The notes below the pieces were generated by a model that saw only the letters and a program-made list of their open reading frames with translations, did not search any database and was not told the DNA's origin. From Tyzzerella sp. An114 (GTDB lineage Bacteria; Bacillota; Clostridia; Lachnospirales; Anaerotignaceae): a stretch of 64,000 nucleotides of DNA. Position 1 is the stretch's first letter. The number at the start of each line of letters is the position of its first letter. The DNA is taken from the NCBI RefSeq assembly GCF_002161055.1, contig NZ_NFLT01000007.1, positions 1-64,000 on the forward strand. The letters are read 5' to 3'. Shown one piece after another: positions 45,973-52,622 of the stretch. Position numbers and translations under genes: made by a program.

Positions 45973-46019
45973 TGTGATATTTTTAGAAAAGTAAGTATAA
46001 GATGAGAGGAGAATTTATT

Positions 46020-47387
46020 ATGGCTAAAATTCCACATAGACTTTATTTATCAGAGGAGCAAATTCCTAAACAATGGTATAATCTTAGAGCAGATATGAAA
46101 GAACAACCAGACCCTCTTTTAAATCCTGCTACATTGAAACCTGTAACAATAGATGACCTTAAGCCTGTATTCTGCGAGGAGTTAGCAAAACAGGAGCTTG
46201 ATGGAACAACAAGATATATAGATATTCCAGAAGAAGTTCAGGAGATGTATAAAGTTTATCGTCCATCACCTCTTATAAGAGCATACAACCTTGAAAAAGC
46301 ATTGGATACACCGGCTAAAATATATTATAAATTTGAAGGAAATAACACATCAGGAAGTCACAAACTTAACTCTGCCATTGCACAGGCTTACTATGCAAAA
46401 AAAGAGGGGCTTACATCTGTGACAACTGAGACAGGTGCAGGACAGTGGGGAACAGCTCTCTCAGAGGCTTGTTCATACTTTGGTCTTGACCTTACTGTAT
46501 ATATGGTAAAGGGTTCATACATTCAGAAACCTTTCAGAAAAGCTGTTATACAGACATTTGGTGGAAATGTAATTGCCAGCCCTAGTGATACAACAGTTGC
46601 AGGAAGAAAAATTCTTGCAGAAAATCCAAATACAACAGGTAGCCTTGGCTGTGCTATTTCAGAGGCTGTTGAAACTGCAACAACAACACCTAATTGTCGT
46701 TATGTCTTAGGTTCTGTATTAAATCAGGTACTTTTACATCAATCTATAATTGGACTTGAAACAAAAATTGCTATGGAAATGCTTGGAGAGTATCCAGATG
46801 TTGTAATTGGTTGTGCTGGAGGCGGTTCAAACCTTGGTGGCCTTATAGGACCATTTATGCAGGATAAACTTACAGGAAAAGCAAATCCTAGAATTGTGGC
46901 TGTTGAGCCAGCTTCTTGTCCATCACTTACAAGGGGGAAATATGCTTATGACTTCTGTGACACAGGAAAAATGACACCTATGGCTAGAATGTATACTTTA
47001 GGTTCTGGATTTATACCTTCAGCAAACCATGCAGGTGGTCTCCGTTATCATGGTATGTCTCCTATACTTTCAAAACTTTATCATGACGGATATATGGAGG
47101 CTGTTTCATATGAGCAGACTAAAGTTTTTGAGGCTGCAACTCTCTTTGCTAAGAAAGAAACTATACTTCCAGCTCCAGAGTCTGCCCATGCCATAAAAGG
47201 TGCTATTGATGAAGCTCTTAAATGTAAAGAGACAGGTGAGGCTAAAACTATACTCTTTGGTCTCACAGGAACAGGATATTTTGATATGACAGCTTATGAA
47301 AGTTTTATGAATAAAACTATGACAGACTATATTCCAACTGATGAAGACCTTGAAAAAGGCTTTGCAAGTCTTCCAAAAATTGACTGA
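46020..47387 (+). CDS. trpB2: TrpB2-type tryptophan synthase beta-like enzyme
   Basis: The 455-residue PLP enzyme is of the long TrpB2 group: N-terminal KIPHRLYLSEEQIPKQWYNL, the PLP lysine in EGNNTSGSHKLNSA, ETGAGQWGTALS, and the glycine-rich GCAGGGSNLGGLIGP phosphate-binding loop. TrpB makes tryptophan from indole and serine. No trpA is adjacent, so it may salvage free indole. I set the ATG at 46020, with GAGAGGAG upstream, in preference to the upstream in-frame ATG at 46002. A Trp T-box controls it, so tRNA-Trp charging sets expression, which supports a role in tryptophan supply. Confidence 0.92.
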   Translation: MAKIPHRLYLSEEQIPKQWYNLRADMKEQPDPLLNPATLKPVTIDDLKPVFCEELAKQELDGTTRYIDIPEEVQEMYKVYRPSPLIRAYNLEKALDTPAKIYYKFEGNNTSGSHKLNSAIAQAYYAKKEGLTSVTTETGAGQWGTALSEACSYFGLDLTVYMVKGSYIQKPFRKAVIQTFGGNVIASPSDTTVAGRKILAENPNTTGSLGCAISEAVETATTTPNCRYVLGSVLNQVLLHQSIIGLETKIAMEMLGEYPDVVIGCAGGGSNLGGLIGPFMQDKLTGKANPRIVAVEPASCPSLTRGKYAYDFCDTGKMTPMARMYTLGSGFIPSANHAGGLRYHGMSPILSKLYHDGYMEAVSYEQTKVFEAATLFAKKETILPAPESAHAIKGAIDEALKCKETGEAKTILFGLTGTGYFDMTAYESFMNKTMTDYIPTDEDLEKGFASLPKID

Positions 47388-47590: not shown

Positions 47591-47681
47591 ATATTTATTA
47601 TGTATTGTTTTAAAAATAAACATTCATTAATTTTAAAAAATTGATTGTTAAAGATTTAGACAATGAAAAGGAGATGAGCTT

Positions 47682-49175
47682 GTGGGCGAAAACTTAGACA
47701 AATTAAATGAGCTTTTTAACCGCAGAAGCACTGTTGAAGCTGGTGGAGGAGAAGAACTTAAGAAAAAACTCCACAGCGAAGGAAAGTTTGACGCAAGAGA
47801 GAGAATTGCAAAACTTCTTGATGACAACACATTTGTTGAATTTGGAGCTTTTGTAAATCAGAGAGCTACTGACTTTAATGCAGTAGAAAAATATACTCCT
47901 TCTGATGGAGTTATTACTGGTTACGGAAGTATATTCGGCAGACTTGTGTTTGTGTATTCTCAAGATAGTACTGTTATGGGTGGCTCTGTGGGTGAAATGC
48001 ACGCTAAGAAGATATGTGGAATTTATGAAAAAGCCATGAAAATGGGTACCCCTGTTGTTGGATTTATAGACTCATCAGGTATGAGAGTTCAAGAGAGTGT
48101 TGATGCTCTTTCAGCCTACGGAGATATTTTTAAAGCTATGACAGCGGCTTCAGGTGTTGTTCCTCAGATTACAGCTATTATGGGAGGTTGTATGGGAACA
48201 AGTTCATTTATACCGGCTCTTTCAGATTTTACTTTTGCAGTTTCTAAAAATGCAAAGCTCTTTATGGTAAGCCCTAATACACTTTCTGGAGAAGAAGGAA
48301 AAAAAGGCGACCTTTCATTGAAAGAGGAAAACGGTCTTATTCAGTTTGTATGTGAAGATGAAGAAAGTTGTATTTCTGAAATGAGAAAACTCATTGACAT
48401 AGTACCTTCAAACAATATGGAAGATGCTCCTTTCTTCGGAACTGGTGATGATATAAACAGAACAGAAGAATTTTTAAATACAATAGTTCCTGAAAATTAT
48501 GATGAAGCTGTTGATATGGGAGCTGTTATAAAAGCTGTTGCTGATAATGGTGAATTCATAGAAGTTCAGAAAAATTTCGCTAAAGAGATAAAAGAAGGAT
48601 TTATACGTGTTAATGGTTATACAGCAGGAATTATTTCAAATAACAGCTATGAACTTACATACCATGGAACAGATAAAGCATTAAAATTCCTCTCATTCTG
48701 TGACGCTTTTAATATTCCTGTAATAACTTTAACAGATGTTGGAGGATATAAAGCTCAAGTTTCACAGACAGCTTTAATAAAGAGTACAGCCAAACTTATG
48801 GCAGGATTTGCTGCTGCAACTTGTCCTAAGATAAATGTTATTATTAGAAAAGGTTTTGGAAATCCATATCTTGTTATGAATTCAAAGCATATTGGTGCTG
48901 ATGTTGTTTTTGCATGGCCTACTGCTGAAGTTTCTGTTATGGACCCTGTTGCTGCTGTAAATGTTATGTATGGCAGTGATAGTGCCCAAAGAGAAGAGGC
49001 TATTGAAAAATATAGAGAGAATAACTCAAGTCCTTATTTTGCTGCAAAGAGAGGTTATATAGATGATATTATAGAGCCTTCTGCAACAAGAAAACGTATT
49101 GGCGCTGTTTTGGAAATGCTTGCAACAAAGCGAGAAGGAAAACCAGCTAAAAAACATTCAAGTTTCACAATATAA
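47682..49175 (+). CDS. Acyl-CoA carboxyltransferase alpha subunit (12S/MmdA-type)
   Basis: The 497-residue protein has two crotonase-fold carboxyltransferase halves. The N-half has ARERIAKLLDDNTFVEFGAFV and DSSGMRVQESVDAL. The C-half has the KFLSFCDAFNIPVITLTDVGGY, GFGNPYLVM and FAWPTAEVSVM region. This is the family of methylmalonyl-CoA decarboxylase alpha, glutaconyl-CoA decarboxylase alpha and the 12S subunit of transcarboxylase. It moves a carboxyl group between an acyl-CoA and biotin. GTG 47682 follows AAAGGAGA. It opens a five-gene operon, and the acyl-CoA is unproven (methylmalonyl-CoA is most likely by analogy). Confidence 0.88.
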   Translation: MGENLDKLNELFNRRSTVEAGGGEELKKKLHSEGKFDARERIAKLLDDNTFVEFGAFVNQRATDFNAVEKYTPSDGVITGYGSIFGRLVFVYSQDSTVMGGSVGEMHAKKICGIYEKAMKMGTPVVGFIDSSGMRVQESVDALSAYGDIFKAMTAASGVVPQITAIMGGCMGTSSFIPALSDFTFAVSKNAKLFMVSPNTLSGEEGKKGDLSLKEENGLIQFVCEDEESCISEMRKLIDIVPSNNMEDAPFFGTGDDINRTEEFLNTIVPENYDEAVDMGAVIKAVADNGEFIEVQKNFAKEIKEGFIRVNGYTAGIISNNSYELTYHGTDKALKFLSFCDAFNIPVITLTDVGGYKAQVSQTALIKSTAKLMAGFAAATCPKINVIIRKGFGNPYLVMNSKHIGADVVFAWPTAEVSVMDPVAAVNVMYGSDSAQREEAIEKYRENNSSPYFAAKRGYIDDIIEPSATRKRIGAVLEMLATKREGKPAKKHSSFTI

Positions 49176-49190
49176 GCGGGGTGAAATCTG

Positions 49191-49550
49191 ATGGAATTAA
49201 AATTGTCAACAGTTATGTTTGAAGGCTTGGGAACAACTATAATAGGTATGGCGATAGTTTTTGCAACTCTTGCTCTTATAGCTTTTGTAATAAGCCTTCT
49301 CAAATACATAGGAAAAGAAAAACCAAAAAAACAAGAAAAAGCAGTTGAACCTCCAAAGCCAGTTGAAGAGCCAATTTTGGAGACTGAAACAGTTGAAGAT
49401 GACCTTGCTCTCATCGCTGTTATAACTGCATCAATAGCAGCAAGTCTTGGAACTTCTGCTGATAAACTTCGTGTTGTTTCTATAAGAAAAGAAAAGAGTT
49501 CTTCATGGATAAATGCTTCAAGGAGAGAACAACAGAGACATATATATTAA
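49191..49550 (+). CDS. Sodium-pump decarboxylase gamma/delta-type small subunit (OadG)
   Basis: The 119-residue protein has one membrane helix (residues about 12-38, GLGTTIIGMAIVFATLALIAFVISLLKY), a Pro/Lys/Glu-rich linker, and a short C-terminal alpha-helical domain (DLALIAVITASIAASLG) ending in SSWINASRREQQRH. It should tether the soluble subunits to the membrane subunit. It lies 15 bases after the carboxyltransferase gene. Confidence 0.88.
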   Translation: MELKLSTVMFEGLGTTIIGMAIVFATLALIAFVISLLKYIGKEKPKKQEKAVEPPKPVEEPILETETVEDDLALIAVITASIAASLGTSADKLRVVSIRKEKSSSWINASRREQQRHIY

Positions 49551-49588
49551 TATTTATTTGATAATAGTATTTTTTGGAGGTTTTATAT

Positions 49589-49954
49589 ATGAGAATTTTT
49601 AGAGTTACTGTAAATGGAGTTACTTATGATGTTGCTGTTGAAGAAGTTGCAGGAGATGGAAGTGCCCCAATGGCTTCTGCTCCAGTTTCTGCACCAGCAC
49701 CAGTTGCTGCAAAAGCTCCAGCACCAAAGGCTTCTGCAAATGCTTTCAAACTTCTTGCTCCTATGGCAGGAACAATTGCTGATATAAAAGTTAAAGTTGG
49801 AGACACAGTTGAAAAAGACCAGCTTGGAATTATGCTTGAGGCAATGAAAATGGAAAATGAAATATTTATACCTGTTGCCGGAAAAGTAACTTCAATCTGT
49901 GTTACAAAAGGTGCTTCTGTAAATGCAGATGATGTTCTTCTTACTATTGAATAA
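49589..49954 (+). CDS. Biotin carboxyl carrier protein (1.3S/MmdC-type)
   Basis: The 121-residue protein has an N-terminal short beta domain, a Pro/Ala linker (about 25-50) and a biotinyl domain with the EAMKMEN motif, Lys87 being the biotinylation site. It carries the carboxyl group between active sites. The start is ATG 49589 with GGAGG at 49576-49580. The in-frame TTG at 49574 precedes that site and is rejected. It is third in the operon. Confidence 0.94.
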   Translation: MRIFRVTVNGVTYDVAVEEVAGDGSAPMASAPVSAPAPVAAKAPAPKASANAFKLLAPMAGTIADIKVKVGDTVEKDQLGIMLEAMKMENEIFIPVAGKVTSICVTKGASVNADDVLLTIE

Positions 49955-49993
49955 TTATAGTAACTAAAATATTGAAAATGGAGGTTACTAGCT

Positions 49994-51151
49994 ATGGAAT
50001 TTTTTAATATGCTTTCAGAGGCATTGGCGGGCTTTGTGGAAAGCTCAGGTTTTATTGCACTGGGGTATAAGGACATAATAATGATTGCTGTTGCTCTCGT
50101 ATTTATGTACCTTGCCATAGTTAAAAACTATGAGCCACTGCTTCTTTTACCAATTTCATTTGGTATGCTTATTGTAAACCTTCCTTTAAACGGACTTATG
50201 GAGGAAGGCGGACTTTTGAGATATCTTTATATGGGTGACGAACTTGGTATATTCCCTCCACTTATATTCATGGGTGTAGGTGCTATGACTGACTTCGGTC
50301 CTCTTATTGCAAATCCTAAAAGTATACTTTTAGGTGGTGCTGCCCAGTTTGGTATATTCGTTGCCTTTCTTGGTGCTTTACTTCTTAACTTTATTCCTGG
50401 TGGATTTTTTGAATTTAATTTCCAGCAGGCAGCTTCAATAGGTATTATAGGTGGTGCTGACGGCCCTACTGCTATATATCTTGCAACAGCTCTTGCTCCT
50501 GAATTATTAGGACCTATTGCCGTTGCTGCATATTCTTATATGTCACTTGTACCTATTATACAGCCTCCTATTATGAGAGCTTTGACAACAAAAGAGGAAA
50601 GAGCCATAAAAATGGAACAGCTTCGTCCTGTTTCAAAAACAGAAAAAATACTTTTTCCTATTGTTGTTACAGTACTTGTAGTTCTTATAATACCAAGCTC
50701 TGCTTCTCTTATAGGTATGCTTATGCTTGGAAATCTCTTTAAAGAGTCAGGAGTTACAAATAAACTTGCTGAGATTGCATCAAATGCTCTTATGTACATA
50801 GTTACTATATTTATAGGTGTAACAGTAGGTGCAACAACAAGTGCTGATGCTTTCCTTAATGCAAGAACTCTCGGAATACTTTTCCTTGGACTTGTCGCAT
50901 TTGCATTCGGTACAGCTGCAGGTGTTGTTATGGGTAAAGTCATGTGCAAACTTTCAGGAGGAAAAATTAATCCTCTTATCGGTGCTGCTGGTGTTTCTGC
51001 TGTTCCTATGGCTGCTCGTGTTGCCCAGAAGGTTGGACAGGAAGAAAACCCTTCAAACTTCCTTCTCATGCATGCTATGGGCCCTAACGTAGCCGGTGTT
51101 ATAGGTTCTGCAATAGCTGCCGGTGTATTCTTAAAACTTTACGGAATGTAA
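49994..51151 (+). CDS. Sodium-translocating decarboxylase beta subunit (OadB/MmdB)
   Basis: The 385-residue integral membrane protein of about 9-11 helices contains the family signature region [21 protein letters not shown] and the closing [21 protein letters not shown]. It decarboxylates carboxybiotin and pumps sodium ions outward, coupling the free energy of decarboxylation to a sodium gradient. GGAGG precedes the ATG. It is fourth in the operon. Confidence 0.93.
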
Positions 51152-51179
51152 TTTTTTGATAAAGACAAGGAGGTTAATT

Positions 51180-52583
51180 ATGGATAAAAAACCCGTTAAA
51201 ATAATGGATACAACATTGCGTGACGGACAACAGTCCCTTATCGCTACAAGAATGAAAACAGAGGAAATTCTTCCTATATTGGATAAAATGGATAAAGTAG
51301 GATTTTATTCTATGGAAGTTTGGGGAGGAGCTACTTTTGACTCTTGTCTCCGTTTCTTGAAAGAAGACCCATGGGAGAGACTTAGAAAAGTAAGAGAGGC
51401 TGCTCCTAATACAAAACTTCAAATGCTTTTTAGAGGTCAGAATATTTTAGGATACAAACAGTATCCAGATGACCTTGTAGAAGCTTTTGTAAAGAAAACA
51501 TTGTCAAATGGTATTGATGTAATGCGTGTTTTTGATGCTTTAAATGACCCTAGAAATTTTCAGGCCTCAGTAAAAGCCATTAAAAAATATAAAGGTGAAG
51601 CACAGCTTGCTATATCTTATACACTCAGTGAAGTTCACACTCTTGAATATTATGTTAAACTTGCTAAAGAGCTTGAGGCTATGGGTGCTGACTCTATATG
51701 TATAAAAGATATGGCGGGACTTCTTCTTCCACAAGCAACATATGACCTTGTGACAGCTATAAAGAGAGAGACAAGTGTACCTCTCCAAATTCACAGCCAT
51801 TGTACAAGTGGTGTTGCTCCTATTGTATATATGAAAGCTGTTGAAGCTGGTGCAGATATAATTGATACTGCCATGTCTCCTTTTGCTATGGGTACAAGTC
51901 AGCCTCCAACAGAGGTTATGAACGCAGCTTTTGCTGGAACACCTTACGACCCAGGTCTTGACCAAGAGTTATTAAGTGAAATATGTGATTACTTTAAACC
52001 TCTTAGAGAGAAAGCTATTGAAAGCGGTCTTTTAAGTACAAAAGTTCTTGGTGTTGATATTGCTACACTTAGATATCAGGTTCCAGGTGGTATGTTATCA
52101 AACCTTGTTTCACAGCTTAAAGGACAGAAAGCAGAAGATAAATATGAGGCTGTTTTAAAAGAAATACCTAATGTAAGACGTGATTTAGGATACCCTCCAC
52201 TTGTAACTCCTACAAGCCAGATTGTAGGTACACAGGCTGTTATGAATGTGCTTATGGGTGAGAGATATAAAGTTGTAACAAAAGAGACAAAAGACCTTGC
52301 AAGAGGTATGTATGGAAAAACTCCTGTAAAAATTTCTGATGAAATGGTTAAGAAATTAGCTGGAAATGAGGAAGTTATAACTTGTCGTCCTGCTGACCTT
52401 GTTCCTGATGGTATTCCAGAGGCTGAAAAAGCTGTTGCTAAATACAAAGAGCAGGAAGAGGATGTTTTATCTTATGCTCTTTTCCCACAGGTTGCAGAGG
52501 AATTTTTCAAATATAGACAGGCACAGAAATATAAAGCTGACCCAGTTTTGGCAGACACAGAAAATAAAGTTTATCCAGTTTAA
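51180..52583 (+). CDS. Pyruvate/oxaloacetate carboxyltransferase (5S/OadA-type), no biotin domain
   Basis: The 467-residue TIM-barrel protein starts KIMDTTLRDGQQSLIATRM (metal and substrate site), has the KDMAG lysine region and IHSHCTSG metal His pair, then a C-terminal PYC_OADA-type domain. It transfers carboxyl between oxaloacetate or pyruvate and biotin. It lacks the C-terminal biotin domain found in full OadA, so it must use the biotin carrier encoded two genes upstream. Start: ATG 51180 with AAGGAGG at 51168-51174. It closes the operon with a strong terminator. Confidence 0.92.
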   Translation: MDKKPVKIMDTTLRDGQQSLIATRMKTEEILPILDKMDKVGFYSMEVWGGATFDSCLRFLKEDPWERLRKVREAAPNTKLQMLFRGQNILGYKQYPDDLVEAFVKKTLSNGIDVMRVFDALNDPRNFQASVKAIKKYKGEAQLAISYTLSEVHTLEYYVKLAKELEAMGADSICIKDMAGLLLPQATYDLVTAIKRETSVPLQIHSHCTSGVAPIVYMKAVEAGADIIDTAMSPFAMGTSQPPTEVMNAAFAGTPYDPGLDQELLSEICDYFKPLREKAIESGLLSTKVLGVDIATLRYQVPGGMLSNLVSQLKGQKAEDKYEAVLKEIPNVRRDLGYPPLVTPTSQIVGTQAVMNVLMGERYKVVTKETKDLARGMYGKTPVKISDEMVKKLAGNEEVITCRPADLVPDGIPEAEKAVAKYKEQEEDVLSYALFPQVAEEFFKYRQAQKYKADPVLADTENKVYPV

Positions 52584-52587
52584 TATA

Positions 52588-52622
52588 AAAAAAGACACCT
52601 TTTTAGGTGTCTTTTTTATTTT
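52588..52622. terminator. Bidirectional terminator between the decarboxylase operon and ytvI
   Basis: AAAAAGACACC/GGTGTCTTTTT with a short loop and T tails on both strands. The stop codon and last codons of the ytvI-like gene lie in its 3' arm (from 52603). Confidence 0.9.

Follow-up and report, generated by a model that had tools for sequence, protein, structure and literature searches.

A predicted sodium-pumping oxaloacetate decarboxylase operon of Tyzzerella sp. An114 is headed by a probably non-catalytic protein of the carboxyltransferase fold

What does an operon do that carries two types of carboxyltransferase gene, one gene for a biotin carrier, and the genes for a sodium pump? Such an operon lies in the 64,000-nucleotide stretch of DNA from Tyzzerella sp. 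An114 that we analysed (contig NZ_NFLT01000007.1, positions 1 to 64,000; hereafter, the window). Five co-directional open reading frames on the + strand (47682-52583) encode a 12S/MmdA-type carboxyltransferase (the 12S-like protein), OadG, a biotin carrier, OadB, and a biotinless OadA. The original prediction, made from the sequence alone, named this gene order, and the open reading frames and their Pfam matches bear it out (Carboxyl_trans, 402.6 bits; OAD_gamma, 69.6; Biotin_lipoyl, 67.2; OAD_beta, 533.2; and, in OadA, PYC_OADA, 181.7, and HMGL-like, 72.8). It also proposed one dual-function complex that either moves a carboxyl group between methylmalonyl-coenzyme A (CoA) and pyruvate or decarboxylates with sodium export. 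In the present study, we found that the sodium-pump part of this proposal is supported by the sequence, with a separate carrier protein, and that the methylmalonyl-CoA transcarboxylation part is not. We consider it probable (roughly 0.6) that the operon encodes a working oxaloacetate decarboxylase and a re-purposed, probably non-catalytic protein of the carboxyltransferase fold.

OadA passes the cut-off of the NCBIfam model for the oxaloacetate decarboxylase alpha subunit, NF008985, and OadB and OadG pass those of their families (scores in Table 1). OadA misses the cut-off of the longer model TIGR01108 (687.2 vs 756.5 bits), of which it matches model positions 1-442 of 582, and that of the transcarboxylase 5S model NF008984 (549.6 vs 827). 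None of the curated cut-offs for MmdA, MmdC, MmdD, and transcarboxylase 5S is reached by any protein of the operon. A biotinyl domain was looked for in the 467 residues of OadA, and none was found. Asp15, Lys176, His205, and His207, which we take to be the metal site of OadA, are present in the expected motifs. When OadB was aligned to Salmonella OadB (6iva), residues E40, D203, Y229, N311, N373, G377, S382, and N412 were kept, and R304 (6iva numbering) was replaced by Lys; the importance of these residues for the Na+ site, D203, S382, and N412 among them, is described in PMC7274780. The Biotin_lipoyl matches in the genome (E ≤ 0.001) are three: frames of 167 amino acids (aa; accB-like) and 1154 aa (pyruvate carboxylase), and the operon carrier. 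With only these two others in the genome, the predicted single carrier of the operon was borne out. OadG, the carrier, OadB, and OadA together are likely to form a Na+-pumping oxaloacetate decarboxylase, a reading that is well supported by these comparisons. OadA would transfer the carboxyl group from oxaloacetate to the carrier biotin, OadB would decarboxylate carboxybiotin and export Na+, and OadG would be the anchor of the complex.

The 12S-like protein, as judged from its sequence, is divergent from MmdA: it scores 544.8 bits with the MmdA model TIGR01117, below the cut-off of 998.8. Canonical proteins mostly carry the motifs DSGGAR, CAGGAVYSPA, TGP, PGYLPG or PGFLPG, and AYGGAY; the window protein has DSSGMR, CMGTSSFIPA, VSPN, GGYKAQ, and GFGNPY. 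One pair of residues in the N-domain motif and one in the C-domain motif form what we take, following work on PccB and 12S, to be the oxyanion holes, and the TGP...SGVAHF segment presumably has an acyl-CoA role. The oxyanion pairs are GA/GA in six and GA/GS in two of eight Mmd loci. The window has TS/NP, and the two other genomes of its genus in the collection have SS/NP (G473) and AS/TP (G448). The window protein has Pro at the second position of the C-domain hole, and proline offers no backbone NH. A 12S locus counted as hybrid if matches to both OadB and OadA lay on its strand no more than 7 kb away, irrespective of the carrier and OadG. Among the 100 hybrid loci, the pairs include GA/SA (20), GL/SA (14), GA/TA (8), and the canonical GA/GA (7). 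The window is an extreme case, because these other pairs are commoner among the hybrids than TS/NP.

To put the alteration into numbers, we used 174 columns that are each at least 95% invariant across 32 canonical proteins, 69 of them in six active-site segments and 105 elsewhere. The window protein retains 29 of the 69 invariant residues in the active-site segments (40 are lost) vs 81 of the 105 elsewhere. In 88 altered sequences, a label given where the GGAR or the TGP string is missing, mean retention was 28% in both the acyl-CoA and the PGYLPG..RHGAK segment, 45-56% in the remaining four, and 70% outside all six; a smaller share was kept inside than outside in 88 of 88. The retention inside and outside ranged from 0.51 and 0.82 in family f90 to 0.28 and 0.63 in family f1 (three rows, the window not counted). 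Conservation of at least 80% in the altered set combined with at most 10% in the canonical proteins was seen at four positions only, which argues against one new active site shared by the altered set. The altered set left out L054, L055, L192, L193, and L202-L204, which are altered or divergent and belong to other families.

AlphaFold gave a model of the window protein with a mean predicted local distance difference test (pLDDT) of 86.1 and a predicted template modelling score (pTM) of 0.87; in the case of a canonical-motif hybrid protein (L219), the values were 90.6 and 0.90. In the model, the overall fold is that of an acyl-CoA carboxyltransferase (PccB/12S), with template modelling (TM) scores by query length of 0.92-0.93 against 8pn7, 1vrg, and 1on3, and a structure match to 8pn8_A with a Z score of 47.7 (480 residues aligned, root-mean-square deviation of 1.8). 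Residues 194-220, in the acyl-CoA segment, form three helices in the L219 model and none in the window model (local confidence in Table 1).

The two congeners bear on the role of the 12S-like gene. The genus comprises three genomes in the collection, namely that of the window, G473, and G448 (Candidatus Fimicola merdigallinarum; locus identical to JADIMX010000078.1 over the 11,500 bases compared; Candidatus Fimicola is placed within Lachnospirales in the NCBI taxonomy). In G473 and G448, the 12S-like gene occupies the position that it has in the window, and an AI-2E-like gene lies just 3' of it, with no OadG, carrier, OadB, or OadA in between. We also sought OadB throughout both genomes, drafts that are 88 and 90% complete, and obtained no match. 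G448 has no Biotin_lipoyl match besides an accB-like frame and a 1148-aa frame of pyruvate carboxylase size; G473 has two extra matches, in frames of 458 and 573 aa. Both orphan genes have an open frame, of 447 aa in G473 and, if counted from the ATG that follows the ribosome site, of 431 aa in G448. Relative to the window, they contain four gaps in G473 and six in G448, including 24 and 21 residues missing after the WP motif of the C domain. Both are preceded by promoter-like sequences (TTGACA-17-TATAAA in L107 and TTGACA-17-TATATT in L108), and a hairpin resembling that after OadA in the window sits directly after the 12S stop codon in L108 and L107.

The 12S-like gene has been under purifying selection over its recent history. 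The NG86 ratios of nonsynonymous to synonymous substitution rates (dN/dS) for the three pairs of 12S-like genes were 0.22, 0.26, and 0.32, and those of flanking genes were 0.05-0.28. A codon model gave an omega of 0.05, with synonymous change near saturation, and was 216 log units worse when omega and kappa were fixed at 1 and 2. In a neutral simulation, 5.5% of frames were free of stop codons at 0.05 substitutions per site, and none of 400 remained so at 0.2; neutrality is therefore tenable only if both pump losses were recent. The number of losses differs between trees. In the tree of DUF362, a single flanking gene, rooted with family outgroups, the window joins G473 with G448 outside (100/97), which would mean two separate losses of the pump. 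In the 12S tree, the orphans instead pair with each other (95), possibly because both evolve fast. Under one or two losses alike, the 12S-like gene persisted when the pump went, and its retention as a lone gene suggests that its present role is a different one.

Relatives of the 12S-like protein (P0001; E ≤ 1e-30) occur in 111 of the 196 genomes of the order and in 186 of the 293 of the class, and OadB (PF03977) occurs in 124 of the 196. We classed 132 12S loci, including the window: 100 hybrid, 14 without OadB, 8 without OadA, 2 with the carrier only, and 8 alone. As the loci were hand-picked from match lists, these counts are not frequencies, and the types extend to 7 kb on the fetched stretch, where contig ends can hide genes. 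L046 (an acc and pyruvate carboxylase locus) and eight loci without a 12S match, L178-L185, were left unclassed; the latter have OadA, the carrier, and OadB (L182 at a contig edge). The gene layout is not due to chance, since 100 of the 132 classed loci are hybrid. Every one of the 84 hybrids that represent the order in the tree, the window included, is altered, and of 13 hybrids outside the order, seven, from other Clostridia, have canonical motifs. The tree comprises 127 proteins, and two changes of the canonical/altered label account for its distribution there. The window groups with its two congeners (support 100), and this trio lies in a larger supported group (97) of 23 rows that includes another family of the order. 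The tree and the column counts left out L164, L165, L172, L175, and L176. A simple history, as far as the sequences suggest, would be that the intact hybrid is ancestral and that the 12S gene was eroded later within Lachnospirales.

Some individual loci deserve mention. The seven canonical-motif hybrids (L047-L050, L194, L196, and L197) come from other Clostridia families and from genomes with no mutase match at E ≤ 1e-30; malonyl-CoA is our guess for their acyl-CoA partner. Eight loci (L051-L053, L193, L195, L198, L200, and L201) have a transcarboxylase-like arrangement of 12S, carrier, and OadA without OadB nearby, in genomes outside the mutase-bearing set described below. In the case of L173 (G439, from the window's family), OadB and OadA are 76-77% identical to those of the window and the 12S-like protein 38%; its active-site retention of 22% is the lowest among the rows listed singly. 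In-frame stops in one Lachnospiraceae genus suggested a split gene; in the two loci of that genus that were inspected, L164 and L165, this reading was rejected, as the stop terminates the 12S frame and reading beyond it leads into the following gene. In the same loci, of one f2 genus, OadG-like proteins with a long, by-eye lipoprotein-like N-terminal part follow 3' of the 12S frame.

If the 12S-like protein acted on methylmalonyl-CoA, a methylmalonyl-CoA mutase might be expected, and the original prediction had itself proposed a genome search for it. This search (PF01642, E ≤ 0.01) gave zero matches in the window genome, which is 98.75% complete; the propionate route, sought through the mutase alone (the epimerase was not searched for), was thus not found there. 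At E ≤ 1e-30, the mutase occurs in 2 of the 196 genomes of the order, in both cases a few kb from a canonical 12S gene (L117 and L121), and in 29 of the 293 of the class; none of the seven genomes with canonical-motif hybrids is among the 29. The six mutase genomes with fetched loci (L186-L191) have an Mmd cluster with no OadA on the stretch. Carboxyl_trans matches in the window genome comprise one full-length protein, the 12S-like one, and an accD/accA-like pair. Separate complexes were also considered; a search for a second carboxyltransferase or carrier found only the accD/accA-like pair, the accB-like frame, and the pyruvate carboxylase.

How, then, should the 12S-like protein be read? The predicted sharing of the carrier by the 12S-like protein and OadA, with the carboxyl group shuttled between methylmalonyl-CoA and pyruvate or vented through the Na+ pump, fits the gene order, the single carrier, and the seven canonical-motif hybrid loci of other Clostridia. 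We nevertheless consider it very improbable for the window, where the mutase search gave no match (as at E ≤ 1e-30 in 194 of the 196 genomes of the order), the active-site motifs are altered with 40 of the 69 invariant residues lost, the MmdA and 5S cut-offs are missed, and in two congeneric genomes the 12S gene has persisted without the operon's carrier and the pump. For the other Clostridia with canonical-motif 12S genes, the hybrid idea may still hold, although none of the seven genomes is among those with a mutase match. Less improbable, but still unlikely in our view, is a carboxyltransferase re-specialised for another substrate (e.g., acetyl-CoA/malonyl-CoA or a non-CoA acid), for which oxaloacetate would donate the carboxyl group. 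The intact fold agrees with this, as do residues Q94, D95, G101, E105, and A108-I111 and the C-terminal K490, K491, and H492, none of which varies in an alignment of 33 proteins that includes one orphan, and the retention of about half of the active-site invariants in altered proteins of families f90, f82, and f78. It is less easily reconciled with the mere four newly conserved positions, the Pro in the C-domain hole, the unformed acyl-CoA segment of the window model, the orphans without the operon's carrier, and a genome that already has an accD/accA-like pair and an accB-like carrier.

A decaying relic, left after the loss of the substrate pathway, would explain the erosion of the motifs, the deletions and longer branches of the orphans, the frame change that disrupts one copy (L172), and the in-frame stops in nine of the matches listed in the order-wide search. 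We find this distinctly improbable, because 127 of the 132 classed loci have a stop-free frame of 430 aa or more, the 12S frame is whole and has the stop at its end in the three stop-bearing matches inspected out of the nine (L130, L164, and L165), the dN/dS values are low, open frames rarely survive the neutral simulation, and the orphans keep promoter and terminator. Several points also weigh against a re-purposed, non-catalytic protein. Most altered relatives (e.g., those with GA/SA, GL/SA, or GA/TA) retain Ala at the second position of the C-domain hole, so that catalysis on another acyl-CoA is possible outside the genus. The six segments were picked after the alignment had been viewed, and the altered label is defined by strings; the contrast inside and outside the segments is thus partly circular. 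The dN/dS values average the periods before and after the loss of the pump at nearly saturated synonymous sites, and the codon model includes the window branch. The orphan branches are longer (0.28 and 0.58 vs 0.11), as relaxed selection would also make them, and the absence of OadB is not certain in drafts of such completeness.

We still prefer a working decarboxylase accompanied by a re-purposed protein; loss of catalysis, pump activity, and the new role are what we infer from sequence. The ancestor of the 12S-type protein was probably a true acyl-CoA carboxyltransferase in the same complex. The Lachnospirales protein would have lost many of its acyl-CoA-facing and biotin-facing residues and been retained in a different role, next to the pump in most hosts but on its own in two relatives. 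A complex scaffold or a ligand-binding protein are our guesses for that role. We propose only tentatively, as a history that is less likely than not, a catalytically dead 12S-fold family in Lachnospirales that passed from carboxyltransferase of the hybrid to non-catalytic partner of the pump, and that in this genus took on a pump-independent function and stayed under its own promoter while the genus shed the four genes of the pump, perhaps on two occasions.

Among known systems, OadABG of Klebsiella, Salmonella, and Vibrio shares with the window the homologues of OadA, OadB, and OadG and the Na+-site residues described in PMC7274780, whereas in the window biotin is carried by a protein of its own and the first gene of the operon is of the 12S type. 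MmdABCD of the Veillonella type (compare the Mmd loci L186-L191) has in common a 12S-type alpha subunit, an OadG-like subunit, a carrier, and a beta subunit; the window differs in an alpha subunit that misses the cut-off and the canonical motifs, in an extra biotinless OadA, and in the lack of a mutase match. Propionibacterial transcarboxylase (12S, 5S, and 1.3S) likewise clusters both carboxyltransferase types and a small carrier, but the window has OadB and OadG, fails the 5S cut-off, and has altered 12S motifs. A related cluster occurs in Clostridia strain BL-4, where, according to the available part of PMC7764203, 12S-like (33% identity to the P. freudenreichii 12S), carrier, and OadA-like genes are clustered, no mutase was found, and the authors read the cluster as a possible methylmalonyl-CoA transcarboxylase. 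The clustering recurs in the window, as does the lack of a mutase match; OadB, present in the window, is not mentioned in that part of the source.

The features of the operon are collected in Table 1. Upstream of the 12S-like gene, the window contains DUF362, metallo-hydrolase-like, and TrpB-like genes; the TrpB-like gene (assigned by eye) occupies 46002-47387. G473 has the same three genes before its 12S-like gene, the TrpB-like counterpart included. In G448, the 12S-like gene is directly 3' of the DUF362 gene, with no TrpB-like gene in between.

Table 1. Positions of the operon features in the window
Feature	Position	Strand	Basis or remark
Sigma70-like promoter, TTGACA / 17-base spacer / TATAAA	47562..47590	+	by-eye reading
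Ribosome binding site AAAAGGAG of the 12S-like gene	47666..47673	+	identical string in L108 and L107
12S/MmdA-type carboxyltransferase-fold protein, 497 aa, GTG start, altered active-site motifs	47682..49175	+	Pfam Carboxyl_trans
N-domain oxyanion motif (presumed), residues 170-179, CMGTSSFIPA; canonical CAGGAVYSPA	48189..48218	+	alignment
Residues 196-222, counterpart of the canonical TGP...SGVAHF segment; pLDDT <50 at 202-212	48267..48347	+	alignment, AlphaFold
C-domain oxyanion motif (presumed), residues 391-396, GFGNPY; canonical AYGGAY	48852..48869	+	alignment
OadG, gamma subunit	49191..49550	+	TIGR01195, 42.9 bits (cut-off 36.05)
Biotin carrier protein, EAMKM at residues 84-88, Lys87	49589..49954	+	PF00364, 67.2 bits
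OadB, predicted Na+-pumping carboxybiotin decarboxylase	49994..51151	+	TIGR01109, 521.5 bits (cut-off 190.6)
OadA, biotinless 5S-type carboxyltransferase, 467 aa	51180..52583	+	NF008985, 754.4 bits (cut-off 718)
Intrinsic terminator-like hairpin and T run, 3' of OadA	52590..52617	+	by-eye reading

In our searches of the open-licence literature of PubMed Central, we recognised no description of a dead 12S protein or of such a hybrid. Naming by similarity, for which the best model is MmdA at a score below its cut-off, would imply methylmalonyl-CoA/propionate metabolism in Lachnospirales, an order where mutase matches occur in just 2 of 196 genomes. If the 12S-like protein is indeed a conserved non-catalytic subunit with an independent role, it would represent a pseudoenzyme family among the biotin enzymes.

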